Assembly: GCA_016290905.1 (NCBI GenBank)
Contig: JAEEVO010000018.1
Location: 1 to 38,691, forward strand
Origin: Lachnospiraceae bacterium
GTDB taxonomy: Bacteria > Bacillota > Clostridia > Lachnospirales > Lachnospiraceae
Reading direction: 5' to 3'
Length of the DNA stretch: 38,691 nucleotides
The first letter of the stretch is position 1. Every line of letters begins with the position of its first letter. The position numbers and the translations under genes were made by a program. Of this stretch, positions 5,625-11,728 are shown piece after piece. The notes below the pieces were generated by a model. The model did not search any database, was not told where the DNA came from, and saw only the letters and a program-made list of their open reading frames with translations.

Positions 5625-5656
5625 CCATAGTGATTAAATATTTACAGGAGGTTAAA

Positions 5657-8600
5657 GTGAACAGAATGTTTAGTAAAGAGTTGAGGACAAAGCTTGCATT
5701 TATCGTGGCTCTTGCGCTGATCGTTACGGCATTGCCGCAAATACCGATATTCGCTAAGAACGAAGCCAAGGGCGTGATAACTGCTACAGAGCTTTTCATG
5801 CGTTCGGGACCCGGCACTGATTACAAGAACATTACCAAGGGCAGCGAGAAGGTTGTACTGGTAAAGGATCAGCAGATCACAGTTCTGGGAGAAAGGAACG
5901 GATGGTATCACATAAGAGCCGAGTACAAGGGAGAAACCTATGAAGGCTATTCCTTAAGTGACTGGATCCAGCTTACGGAGGGTACGGTCAACAAGGAAAC
6001 CAGTGAATTCAAGGAGATCACACCTACTCCCACTCCTGCTCCCAGACCTAAGAGCACCGGCAAGGGCAGGGTTGACGCGGATGAGCTTTTTATCCGTAAA
6101 GGACCCGGAACCGATTATGACAAGGTTCTTGTCAACGGAGAGCCCGCAGTGCTTGTCAGAGAGCAGATAGTAGAGCTTTACAGCGCAAAGGACGGCTGGT
6201 ATCGTATTTCCGCAACCATAGGAGGAAAAGAGGTCGACGGATATTCACTCGGAACCTTTATTGCGGTAACGAGCGGAAGCGTAAGTGAGGAAAAGCCTTC
6301 GACAACACCTACACCTACAGCAACACCTACGCCCAAGCCTACCAAGGAGCCTACACCTACTCCTACCGAGGCGGTAACGCCTACACCTACGGCAGTACCT
6401 GAGGAGACGCCTTTCCCTACAGCACCTGCCATCCCTGAGGGCACACATACTGACGAGGACGGTAAGGTAGTTGATGAAGAAGGAAACGAGTATGAGCTGG
6501 TTACTGAAACCTTCAGCTCAAAGTATGACATAAAGGGCGCCGTATCGGTTGAACTTCTCAACATGAGAAAGAGCGCATCCTTTGACGGAGATGTTCTCGG
6601 CATCCTTGCAAAGGGTAATATAGTAAACCTTGTCGGCACAAAGATGAGCAATATCAGTGTGAAGGGCGAGACCGTAAAGGCACGCTGGTACAAGGTTATC
6701 GCAAATGTAGACGGCAAGCCTGTAAAGGGCTATGTCTTAAGCAATTACATCGTGCTTGACTATACTGACGGTCTGGTGGTTAAGACCAACATTAACAAGC
6801 AGATATTAAGAAAAGATGCATCTTCTTCTACAAAGAAGGTCAAGACTTCGAAAGGAAGCGTTGTAAAGCTTTCTGCGGGAACAGAGGTTGTGATCCTTGC
6901 CGAAAAGGATACTGACGGAGATAAATGGGTCAAGATCCAGGTTGAATATAACGGCGAGACCATTACGGGCTGGATCATCGCAGGAAGGATCTCCTTTATA
7001 AGCAATGCATCCGAGACCGATTTCTGCTATTATACAAAGAAGGAAAAAGCTGCTGATATTATAGTGCCGGATCCTCCGGTAGACGACAACAAGGACGGAA
7101 AGAATGCGGTACTTAATGATGCTGCGGCTCTGAGCCTGAAGACCGATCCCAAGTATTCTGCGGATGTTGTTTTCACAGATGACAAAAAACCTGTCATATT
7201 ATATTCGGGACTTGCTGTACATGTGATCGAGTCTGTTTCGGATGAGCAGGGCAACACCTGGTGTAAGATAGAAGCGGAATTTGACGGAAAAACCTATACA
7301 GGTTACATTAATTCAATTTATGTTGAGGCAGGGGAGGGGCTTACCCCCCCTGACACCTCAAACGGGAACACCACCCCGTCTGTCAGTTTTGAGGAAGGAC
7401 TGACAAACGAGGGTTTTCCGGAGAGCTATAAGCCCTTTCTGCGCGAGCTTCATGAGCAGTATCCCAACTGGATATTCAAAGCTTATCAAACGGGACTTGA
7501 CTGGGACACAGTCATTGAAAAGGAATCAGTATTAGGTGAAAACCTTATCCCCAACACAAGAAGCGTGGAATGGAAATCCTTAGAGGCCGGTGCTTATAGC
7601 TGGAGTAGTGACAGATTTACCGTTTTTGACGGTTCTTCATGGGTCACGGCCTCTAGAGCGGCATTGAGTTATTACATGGATCCGAGAAATTTCCTCGGAC
7701 ATGATACAATTTTCCAATTTGAAGTACTGGACTACAATCCCTCCTACCAGACAAAGGAAGGCATAGCCACGATCATTAAGAATACGGCTATGAACAACGC
7801 TTCCTATACTTATAAGGACGATCTGGGTGTGGAGAGGACTATTTCATATGTTGATACATTTCTGATGGCAGCCGAGTTTTCGGGAGTAAGCCCGATACAC
7901 CTTGCTTCACGTGTAAAGCAGGAGGTTACCATTGGTTCGAATTCAATGAGCAACAGCGTGACCGGTACCGTATCCGGTCTTGAAAATCTGTACAATTACT
8001 ATAATATCGGGGCATTCCACAGTACGGAGACCGGCGGAGCGATAGCCAACGGTTTGAAATATGCCAAAAACGGCTCTTCGAGCGAAACACTGAACATGAA
8101 ATGTCTTATTCCCTGGAACAACCGTTTAAGATCGATTCTCGGCGGTGCTTTTTACATAGGGAATAATTATATAAATAGAGGACAGAATACAATTTACCTT
8201 CAGAAGTTTAACGTAACGCCTACTTCCACATTCAATCATCAGTATATGGCAAATGTGGAAGCACCTTACTCGGAAGGGAAACGTATGTTTAACGCATATG
8301 AGAATCCCGGGGAGATACCGATAGTATTCTCCATTCCGGTATACGAGAATATGCCCGAAACACCTTGTCCCGTACCTGAAAAAGCTTACAATCCCAATAA
8401 CTGGCTGAGCAGCCTGAACCTTTACGACATAAACGGAGACGCCATTAAGCTTTCACCTTCGTTCAATGTTTCAAAGGATCAGGAATACAGTGCAGTGGTA
8501 AGCTATGAGACTACTTATATCAAGATAAGCGCCACAACCGTAAGCTCTCTTGCTACGGTTAAGGGTGAAGGCTTTGAGCCCAAGGTAGGATCAAATAAGC

Positions 8601-8818
8601 TTATCATACCTGTAGAGGCGCAAAACGGAGACGTCAGACAGTATGTCATCAATATAATAAGAAAGGATAAGGACGGAGGAACGACGGTACCTACGCCTAC
8701 TCCGGATAATCCTAACGAACCGACCCCTATAGTCATCGATGTCAAGGAGGTTACACCGGATCCTAACGATCCCGATGATCAGGATCAGCCAACACCTACA
8801 CCGTTTGTTTATGGCTAA
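5657..8818 (+). CDS. Secreted cell-wall N-acetylglucosaminidase with five SH3 domains
   Basis: An exported peptidoglycan hydrolase of 1,053 residues. A signal peptide (about 1-35, ending near IPIFAKN) is followed by five bacterial SH3-type repeats, recognisable by a repeated MRSGPGTDY...GWYHI...GY pattern (about 36-110, 135-205, 280-365, 370-450 and 470-560). A threonine/proline-rich linker lies at about 205-260. The catalytic glucosaminidase domain (about 580-880) begins PESYKPFLRELHEQYPNWIF and contains ASRVKQEV and the YNYYNIGA stretch typical of the LytG/GH73-like fold. A cadherin-like beta-sandwich (about 905-1000) and an acidic Pro/Thr tail end the protein. AGGAGG (5646-5651) sits five bases before the GTG at 5657, so I chose this over GTG 5630. 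Likely role: wall turnover or cell separation. Confidence 0.9.
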   Translation: MNRMFSKELRTKLAFIVALALIVTALPQIPIFAKNEAKGVITATELFMRSGPGTDYKNITKGSEKVVLVKDQQITVLGERNGWYHIRAEYKGETYEGYSLSDWIQLTEGTVNKETSEFKEITPTPTPAPRPKSTGKGRVDADELFIRKGPGTDYDKVLVNGEPAVLVREQIVELYSAKDGWYRISATIGGKEVDGYSLGTFIAVTSGSVSEEKPSTTPTPTATPTPKPTKEPTPTPTEAVTPTPTAVPEETPFPTAPAIPEGTHTDEDGKVVDEEGNEYELVTETFSSKYDIKGAVSVELLNMRKSASFDGDVLGILAKGNIVNLVGTKMSNISVKGETVKARWYKVIANVDGKPVKGYVLSNYIVLDYTDGLVVKTNINKQILRKDASSSTKKVKTSKGSVVKLSAGTEVVILAEKDTDGDKWVKIQVEYNGETITGWIIAGRISFISNASETDFCYYTKKEKAADIIVPDPPVDDNKDGKNAVLNDAAALSLKTDPKYSADVVFTDDKKPVILYSGLAVHVIESVSDEQGNTWCKIEAEFDGKTYTGYINSIYVEAGEGLTPPDTSNGNTTPSVSFEEGLTNEGFPESYKPFLRELHEQYPNWIFKAYQTGLDWDTVIEKESVLGENLIPNTRSVEWKSLEAGAYSWSSDRFTVFDGSSWVTASRAALSYYMDPRNFLGHDTIFQFEVLDYNPSYQTKEGIATIIKNTAMNNASYTYKDDLGVERTISYVDTFLMAAEFSGVSPIHLASRVKQEVTIGSNSMSNSVTGTVSGLENLYNYYNIGAFHSTETGGAIANGLKYAKNGSSSETLNMKCLIPWNNRLRSILGGAFYIGNNYINRGQNTIYLQKFNVTPTSTFNHQYMANVEAPYSEGKRMFNAYENPGEIPIVFSIPVYENMPETPCPVPEKAYNPNNWLSSLNLYDINGDAIKLSPSFNVSKDQEYSAVVSYETTYIKISATTVSSLATVKGEGFEPKVGSNKLIIPVEAQNGDVRQYVINIIRKDKDGGTTVPTPTPDNPNEPTPIVIDVKEVTPDPNDPDDQDQPTPTPFVYG

Positions 8819-9969: not shown

Positions 9970-10668
9970 ATGTTATGTGATATTTGCCAGACACGTCAGG
10001 CAAAAATATTTTATACCGAGATAGTCAACGGTCAGAAGAAGGAACAGCACCTTTGTGAGCAATGTGCTTCGGAGCATACTGCCGTTCCGATAAATGAGCT
10101 TCTCGGAGGACAGGGGCTTTCGGCTATAGGAAGCATACTGTCGGGTATAATGAGCAGTTACGCTAAGGACAGGGGAAAAGCTTTAGAGAGCGAGAACCGT
10201 GTTGAGACAACGTGTCCGGAGTGTGGGACAACGGAGTCTGATTTCTTAAAGACCGGAAAGACAGGATGTCCTGTATGCTACAATGTATTCAGGGATATGA
10301 TCACAAAGAACTTCAAGACCATGCAGGGAGGTATGACTCATGTCGGAAAAGAGCCTTCCTATGCAAAGTACATCCAGATAGATGACAGTGTTCCGAAGCA
10401 GACCTTTGTGAACAAAAACTTAGAAGATCTGGACAAGAAGCTGAATATCCCCGGGGATGATGAGGCTGAGATTAATCCCGATATTAAGGAAACTGTTAAG
10501 GAAAAGCCGAAAAGAAAGCCTGCCGCACAGAAAAGCGGCGTTAAGAAGATCGGGGAACTTAAGGAACAGCTTAAACATGCCATAGAGATAGAAGATTATG
10601 AGCTGGCCGCAAAGCTTCGCGATGAAATAAAGGCCTTAGAGGTGAAGAATGAGAAAAAGAAAAAATAA
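9970..10668 (+). CDS. mcsA: McsA, zinc-finger activator of the McsB/ClpC system
   Basis: A 232-residue protein. In Bacilli McsA stimulates the arginine kinase McsB and links it to ClpC. Visible are two zinc-ribbon pairs: Cys3/Cys6 with Cys29/Cys32, and CPEC with CPVC near residues 79-103. A UVR-type coiled-coil motif is at the C-terminus (KEQLKHAIEIEDYELAAKLRDEI, about 196-220), as expected for the family. A Lys/Pro-rich linker connects the two parts. GGAGG precedes the ATG. The gene overlaps mcsB by 20 bases, which suggests translational coupling. Confidence 0.94.
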   Translation: MLCDICQTRQAKIFYTEIVNGQKKEQHLCEQCASEHTAVPINELLGGQGLSAIGSILSGIMSSYAKDRGKALESENRVETTCPECGTTESDFLKTGKTGCPVCYNVFRDMITKNFKTMQGGMTHVGKEPSYAKYIQIDDSVPKQTFVNKNLEDLDKKLNIPGDDEAEINPDIKETVKEKPKRKPAAQKSGVKKIGELKEQLKHAIEIEDYELAAKLRDEIKALEVKNEKKKK

Positions 10669-11728
10669 ATGGTATTATGATTCAAAAGCCTATCATGAGG
10701 TTGTTCTCTCGGGAAGCGTAACCTTGGCCAGAAATCTTGCTGACTATAATTTCCCTTCACGCTTAAGCGAAGAGGATGCCTTGAGAGTGGTAGAGACTGT
10801 CAGGTCCCTTACGACCGATCTCGGAGCAAGGGAAGAACGGGATTATTATTCATGCAGGGTTGACAGGCTTTCAAATACCGACAAGGACTGCCTTATCGAA
10901 AGTCATGCGATCACCCCTTCGCTGAAGAGGCGCAAAGACCCGACAGGGCTTATAATTTCCGATGACGAGAGCGTCAGCATAATGATAAATGATGACGATC
11001 ACATACATATCAGGGCTACAAGAGCGGGCTACAATTTAAGGGATGCTTATAAGACAGCCAACCGTATAGATGATTTCATTGATTCGGAGCTGAAATACTG
11101 TTTCAGTGAAAAATACGGATACCTTACATCCAAGCTTCAGGATGCGGGAACGGGACTTCATGCAAGCTATATGCTTTCGCTTCCTGCCATAACCATGGGA
11201 GGAAGGGTTGAAGTCTTACAGGACGAGATCTCGAGATTTGACGTAACCCTCAAGGGAATATACGGCGAAGGCTCAAAGAGCGCGGGGTTTATCTTCCAGC
11301 TCTTAAACCGCAAAACCCTGGGAGTCAGCGAAAACGAGATACTTGAGAATCTTGAACAGGTTACGGCTCAGATAGTAAACATTGAGAAGAGGCTCAGGGG
11401 TGAGCTTGTAAAGAATGCCGGGAATGAGATGAAGGACAGGGTTTACAGGTCCTACGGTGTTCTGAAATTTGCAAAAAACCTTCCCCAGAAGGATGCCATG
11501 GTACTGCTGGCACAGCTTAAGCTCGGCTCCGACTGCGGGCTCATAAAGGTTAAGGGAGGCGGCAGCGAGATTCACAAGCTCATGATCGAAATGCAGCCGG
11601 GGAACCTTCAGACCATATATAACAAGAAAAGCATGGGAAGCGTACAGAGGGATGAATACCGTGCGAAATATCTGAATGAACATCTTCCGGAACTCATAGA
11701 GGAAAAGACGGAAGAAACGGAGGCATGA
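10649..11728 (+). CDS. mcsB: McsB-family protein with degenerate kinase active site
   Basis: 359 residues, clearly homologous over its length to the protein-arginine kinase McsB (phosphagen-kinase fold). Conserved landmarks include ARN at 27-29, IYGEGS at 204-209, DRVYRSYGVL and the C-terminal RD pair (334-335) that binds phosphoarginine in Bacillus McsB. Against the family pattern recalled from B. subtilis, the nucleotide-binding arginines are replaced: SSRIRLARN reads SGSVTLARN (Ser23, Thr25), NEEDHIR reads NDDDHIH (Asp116, His120), CPTNxGTGLRAS reads KLQDAGTGLHAS (Lys162-Asp165, His171), and RGIYGEGS reads KGIYGEGS (Lys202). Kinase activity is therefore doubtful and it may act as a pseudokinase or adaptor. 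There is no frameshift or stop. GAGGTG precedes the ATG, and clpC starts directly after the stop. Confidence 0.9.
   Translation: MRKRKNKWYYDSKAYHEVVLSGSVTLARNLADYNFPSRLSEEDALRVVETVRSLTTDLGAREERDYYSCRVDRLSNTDKDCLIESHAITPSLKRRKDPTGLIISDDESVSIMINDDDHIHIRATRAGYNLRDAYKTANRIDDFIDSELKYCFSEKYGYLTSKLQDAGTGLHASYMLSLPAITMGGRVEVLQDEISRFDVTLKGIYGEGSKSAGFIFQLLNRKTLGVSENEILENLEQVTAQIVNIEKRLRGELVKNAGNEMKDRVYRSYGVLKFAKNLPQKDAMVLLAQLKLGSDCGLIKVKGGGSEIHKLMIEMQPGNLQTIYNKKSMGSVQRDEYRAKYLNEHLPELIEEKTEETEA

Follow-up and report, generated by a model that had tools for sequence, protein, structure and literature searches.

A probable pseudo-arginine-kinase conserved between mcsA and clpC in a genus of Lachnospiraceae

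The window, by which we mean the whole 38,691-nucleotide stretch of a Lachnospiraceae genome assembly analysed here, carries an operon in the order mcsA-mcsB-clpC with all three genes on the plus strand (Table 1). The initial annotation had taken the mcsB frame to be intact, and it is open over its full length. The mcsA product finds McsA as its top NCBIfam match (E 2.9e-32), under the cut-off of that model. This arrangement is general: mcsA and clpC each adjoin mcsB on the same strand in 108 of the 110 loci compared, the two exceptions for each neighbour being contig ends. The host genome (2.94 Mb in 198 contigs) is 81% complete and contains a single match to PF00217, at a completeness that would allow a second kinase or a phosphatase to be missing from it. 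The nearest named relatives of its McsB come from eight Lachnospiraceae metagenome assemblies (8 of the 12 named loci fetched), are 74-89% identical to it and may belong to the same genomes as our genus set under the names given there; three of the eight assembly titles name the rumen or omasum of sheep, water buffalo or goat.

Two further observations concern other parts of the window. An Rfam group II intron match (D1-D4-3) lies at positions 100-239 on the plus strand (45.8 bits, gathering threshold 32) and is adjoined on the opposite strand by a long open reading frame (253-2826). A tRNA-Ser called by ARAGORN at 7905-7986 (+) falls inside a long SH3-domain reading frame (5630-8818) and is probably a false positive.

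Table 1. Operon genes and McsB motif positions, in window coordinates
Feature	Start	End	Strand	Remarks
mcsA	9970	10668	+	two zinc fingers retained (4 CxxC); last 20 bases shared with mcsB
mcsB homologue, probable pseudo-arginine-kinase	10649	11728	+	359 aa; PF00217 E 7.7e-51; 6tv6/8wtb E about 1e-64
S23-V-T25 replacing R29-x-R31	10715	10723	+	alignment to B. subtilis McsB
NDDDHIH replacing NEEDHIR (E121 to D116, R125 to H120)	10988	11008	+	alignment to B. subtilis McsB
KLQD replacing CPTN (catalytic Cys167 to K162)	11132	11143	+	alignment to B. subtilis McsB
GTGLH replacing GTGLR (R176 to H171)	11147	11161	+	alignment to B. subtilis McsB
LKGIYGEGS loop (R207 to K202; Glu212 kept as E207)	11249	11275	+	alignment to B. 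subtilis McsB
RDEYRA, C-terminal phosphoarginine pocket, kept	11648	11665	+	12/12 in the window's subclade
clpC	11730	14192	+	TTG start; separated from the mcsB stop by one base; has Glu31 and Glu106

The mcsB product is a near full-length homologue of characterised McsB proteins. Residues 7-357 align with B. subtilis McsB (8wtb/6tv6) and residues 8-346 with Geobacillus McsB (6fh1; both by phmmer), with no alignment gap inside the catalytic motifs. Its phosphagen-kinase catalytic domain (PF00217) scores 172.8 bits against a cut-off of 22.4, and the protein falls under the cut-offs of all five matched NCBIfam models named for arginine kinase, the best two at 324 of 385 and 309 of 500 bits. R29, R31, R125, R176 and R207 of B. 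subtilis McsB correspond to S23, T25, H120, H171 and K202, the catalytic Cys167 to K162 and Glu121 to D116; in the solved Bacillus and Geobacillus McsBs the same columns read, in sequence order, R, R, E, R, C, R, R. In our reading, the five arginines are the counterparts of those that bind phosphate in Limulus arginine kinase. Glu212 is retained as E207, R34 as R28, and the C-terminal R337-D338-x-x-R341-A342 pocket as RDEYRA at residues 334-339 (R334-D335-R338). Alignment with the solved proteins therefore agrees with every substitution listed in the initial annotation, and with its observation that the GEGS loop and the C-terminal RD site remain.

The same positions have been probed by mutation. 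Each of the replacements R29K, R31K, R34K, R125K, R176K, R207K and R337K left B. subtilis McsB with no phospho-signal, and R31 and R337 are placed outside the active site in the same study (PMC7235348). The R207K state is thus natural in the window McsB, where four further arginines and the cysteine have also been lost. Since the published single arginine-to-lysine mutants are inactive, arginine kinase activity is not expected of this protein.

The substitutions are a clade trait. Twenty-three of the 24 genomes of the genus carry mcsB, the one without it being 64% complete; the frame is open in all 23, no internal stop occurs in any of the 24 matches, and none of the 24 McsB sequences (two from genome G213) has a complete active site. 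In an McsB tree built with the catalytic columns left out, the genus forms one clade (SH-aLRT 99) of three subclades with different replacements. Subclade A, to which the window belongs, comprises 12 sequences from 11 genomes with replacements at the same positions and mostly to the same residues. All five arginines are lost in ten of them, and four in the other two (L046 and L047), which keep R176. Position 125 is His and position 207 Lys in all 12, position 29 is always Ser or Thr, position 167 always Lys or Arg, and the position of Asp165 is fixed. Elsewhere the residues vary: T 7, M 4 and C 1 at position 31, H 10 and R 2 at 176, D 9 and E 3 at 121, and E 10 and D 2 at 212. Other catalytic residues are missing from the two sister subclades, which comprise six sequences apiece, and Arg337 is absent from all 12 of these.

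To describe McsBs across the family, we called a sequence intact when it had the five arginines (R29, R31, R125, R176, R207), Cys167, Glu121 and Glu212, residues that all 53 intact McsBs consequently share by construction. A PF00217 match was present in 44 of the 200 genomes of a family sample that took roughly one genome from each genus. Among the 80 McsB-bearing family genomes read, 23 of them from the window's genus, McsB was degenerate in 70, a class defined as being without at least one scored catalytic residue and including some rows that depart from the rule at just one or two positions and may be active. The initial annotation was right about the degenerate residues, and the window McsB is not one odd gene. 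The second copies L031, L058 and L068 were left out of this family cross-table, and the named loci L101-L112 were not used in it. At the level of the order, the 30 best-scoring loci were taken first and 15 lower-scoring ones from other families added; degenerate McsBs outside the family comprised L109-L112 from named Clostridia and L175 and L196 among the 45 other-family rows. Two family McsBs, L043 (genome G025) and L044 (G071), have Cys for R125 and retain just one of the five arginines, a separate case of extreme degeneration. Genome G213 (66% complete) has its two mcsB loci, L053 and L068, on different contigs, either through duplication or through a mixed assembly.

McsB of the window's subclade is under strong purifying selection, and its catalytic columns are without excess conservation. 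Pairwise Nei-Gojobori estimates, made with our own script and with many saturated pairs dropped, gave a median omega of 0.040 for these McsBs (11 of 66 pairs, dS < 1.5). The corresponding values were 0.037 in the N-terminal region of ClpC (17 pairs), 0.058 in McsA (6 pairs) and, from 34 pairs within the 30 best-scoring loci, 0.088 in intact McsBs from other families of the order. On a fixed list of 24 catalytic columns, with the C-terminal end left out, 14 were invariant in the window's subclade against 164 of 311 columns elsewhere in the protein (p 0.67), and 9 against 131 of 311 in subclade C (p 0.83). Subclade B was the exception, with 18 of 24 against 145 of 311 (p 0.0099), and its sequences would be consistent with a remade, still constrained pocket, which is possible. 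Three intact McsB groups of similar divergence had 24, 23 and 23 of the 24 catalytic columns invariant against 45-65% elsewhere, and in the family's intact McsBs, a more diverse set, the figures were 20 of 24 against 64 of 311.

The neighbouring genes were read for signs of a changed system. As the initial annotation had stated, the window ClpC keeps Glu31 and Glu106, and so do 106 of the 108 ClpCs adjoining mcsB, a set in which certain genomes are represented by two loci; the remaining two ClpCs stop short of the second glutamate position. The contrast drawn there between a degenerate McsB and retained phosphoarginine receptors in ClpC nevertheless carries no weight. Of 20 ClpCs from genomes that lack McsB, 19 have both N-domain glutamates (scored as Glu32 and Glu106), and the aligned columns are also Glu in the next-best Clp matches of the same genomes, taken as ClpB, at all ten loci (L133-L142). 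A recent study (PMC12583610) describes the glutamate pockets of ClpC as stabilising its resting state and as bound by MecA. Because the glutamates are kept without McsB and have this structural role, their retention says nothing about phosphoarginine, and we rejected them as a sign of phosphoarginine reading. In McsA of subclade A no degeneration was found, the second zinc finger and the basic loop residue being kept in 12 of 12 sequences; one copy (L068) has one CxxC fewer. CtsR was found in none of 70 family genomes, ten with intact McsB among them, with Lactococcus lactis as a positive and sole CtsR control, the B. subtilis control being negative for both CtsR and PF00217 and seeming not to expose the operon. 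Loss of CtsR was rejected as a sign of a changed system, given its absence from those ten intact-McsB genomes as well. Control of clpC in the family may differ from that in B. subtilis.

The phosphatase that would remove phosphoarginine gave a further line of evidence. According to PMC8001253, P-loop position 5 is Thr in the arginine phosphatase YwlE and Ile in the tyrosine phosphatases of the same family, which sets the two apart. No Thr-type phosphatase was found in the 81% complete host genome, whose two LMWPc matches, one full-length and one a fragment, are both of the Ile, or phosphotyrosine, type (CWGNICRS). Within the family, a DNA pattern for the Thr type matched all 10 genomes whose McsB is intact and 3 of the 70 whose McsB is degenerate, in a cross-table where McsB presence was scored by profile and phosphatase presence by exact DNA pattern; the three exceptions are G207 (9% contamination) and G216, both of the window's subclade, and G272. 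The pattern requires C-R-S-P-M and misses Thr-type copies with C-R-S-T-M, of which one is known (L163 of G216). Phosphatase copies read directly in the genus, where 19 of 24 genomes had a match, showed Thr in G207 and G216 only. Across the order sample the pattern occurred in 122 of 169 genomes with McsB and 7 of 223 without. In other families it was found in 32 of the 43 genomes read with intact McsB and in neither of two with degenerate McsB, so that either the pattern misses some copies or the pairing of writer and eraser is not strict. A test of this link on the tree yielded three supported independent pairs, one of them inside the family, and no significance; on average 2.1 pairs went the same way, 0.0 the other way and 0.9 showed no difference. 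The eraser signature is rare in family genomes with degenerate McsB, with few independent events on the tree, and this distribution supports the pseudokinase reading.

Both low-molecular-weight phosphatase genes of the host follow a Tn916-type integrase gene (PF02920 and PF00589, tested on the L069 copy). The pair occurs at L069:64-1947 and L070:46-1593 (minus strand), on contigs C10 and C114 of the host genome (G000), and the phosphatase of the second pair is cut by the contig end.

Taken together, we consider it likely that this mcsB encodes a conserved pseudo-arginine-kinase that has been retained to work alongside McsA and ClpC without catalysis. Such a protein would be unable to place ATP for phosphoryl transfer and would make no phosphoarginine; it would form a complex with McsA and dock onto ClpC as an adaptor or regulator, and it may have persisted because catalysis is dispensable for this adaptor job. 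The C-terminal pocket of the window's subclade probably belongs to the surface used for docking or oligomerisation, or else touches McsA at its second zinc finger, a contact suggested for B. subtilis (PMC7235348). Conservation of RDxxRA points to a continuing need for binding by the C-terminal domain there; in the sister subclades without Arg337, the pocket would matter less or differently. A tentative extension, which we regard as possible and no more likely than that, would make McsB a reader only: with the writer dead and the eraser mostly gone, it would be an obligate non-catalytic adaptor whose RDxxRA pocket recognises a ligand other than a kinase product and opens ClpC without phosphoarginine. 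Candidate ligands would be a phosphorylated or acidic element of the client, of McsA or of ClpC.

Several observations run against these interpretations. Glu212 and the acidic residue at position 121 are kept, L046 and L047 still have R176, and two genomes of the window's own subclade, G207 and G216, have Thr-type phosphatases. According to the review PMC5506225, the adaptor role of McsB for ClpC in B. subtilis was reported to need its kinase activity, and the kinase and adaptor roles are hard to separate in that organism. The kinase-inactive C167S mutant of B. subtilis McsB does keep part of the adaptor effect, as studied on MgsR (PMC7235348), which is mainly a ClpX substrate.

Glu212, the carboxylate at position 121 and the Thr-type phosphatases of two subclade members would also fit a protein arginine kinase that holds ATP in an unconventional way, as would near full-length homology and a McsA with both zinc fingers. 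We nonetheless regard continued kinase activity as very unlikely: a single lysine at any of the five arginine positions, including 207, inactivates the B. subtilis enzyme (PMC7235348), the window McsB has all five substituted together with Cys167, and the excess conservation of the catalytic columns has been lost. It is somewhat less improbable, while still unlikely, that the pocket has been rebuilt (S/T, T/M/C, H, H/R, K, K/R, Q/T, D) for another ligand or reaction. The invariant positions of His120, Lys202 and Asp165 in all 12 sequences, the acidic residues at 121 and 212 and the above-background conservation of the remade pocket in sister subclade B would agree with this. In the window's subclade, however, the catalytic columns show no more conservation than the remainder of the protein, and the Arg31 position wanders among three residues, unlike in a working active site. 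Of the outcomes offered by the initial annotation, a pseudokinase or adaptor is accordingly the one favoured by the mutants, the selection estimates, the lost excess conservation and the rarity of the eraser, and little in the window's clade speaks for a different reaction.

The single base between the mcsB stop codon and the clpC start might instead point to a decaying remnant, kept only by translational coupling to clpC. Coupling would not preserve protein residues, however, and with omega about as low as that of ClpC and open frames in every McsB-bearing genome of the genus, we consider a remnant highly improbable. An assembly or alignment artefact could be imagined for an assembly as fragmented as this one, and its probability is close to negligible given 11 genomes with replacements at the same positions and catalytic motifs aligned without a gap; the eight named assemblies agree, though they may be the same genomes under their names.

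Among the literature matches listed, with most subscription journals outside the search, there was no description of a degenerate McsB, and no paper pairing McsB with Lachnospiraceae was found in the literature searched. Chlamydial McsB was considered as a degenerate precedent and rejected, being called a putative arginine kinase in the accessible part of PMC5177608. Pseudoenzymes, bacterial pseudokinases included, are already known; no conserved pseudo-McsB lineage appeared among the matches listed. If the pseudokinase reading is true, a natural lineage would separate the kinase role of McsB from its adaptor role and would show what McsA-McsB does for ClpC without phosphoarginine. The family survey also warns that the presence of mcsB alone does not make Clostridia arginine-phosphorylating.

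McsB is a phosphagen-kinase relative, with a fold unrelated to that of serine-threonine pseudokinases. The bacterial serine-threonine pseudokinases described in PMC12599244 are likewise kinase relatives kept without catalytic residues; in the accessible part of that source, McsB and arginine kinase occur only in the reference list. With the McsB systems of B. subtilis and G. stearothermophilus (6tv6, 8wtb, 6fh1), the window McsB shares near end-to-end homology, the mcsA-mcsB-clpC order, Glu212 and RDxxRA. It differs from them in having none of the five arginines, no Cys167 and Asp for Glu121, and in a host genome (81% complete) where neither a YwlE-type phosphatase nor CtsR was found. The closest likeness to the proposed state is B. 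subtilis McsB C167S, in which kinase activity is gone and part of the adaptor effect is kept (PMC7235348); that protein carries one engineered change and was studied on MgsR, whereas the window McsB belongs to a natural lineage with many changes.
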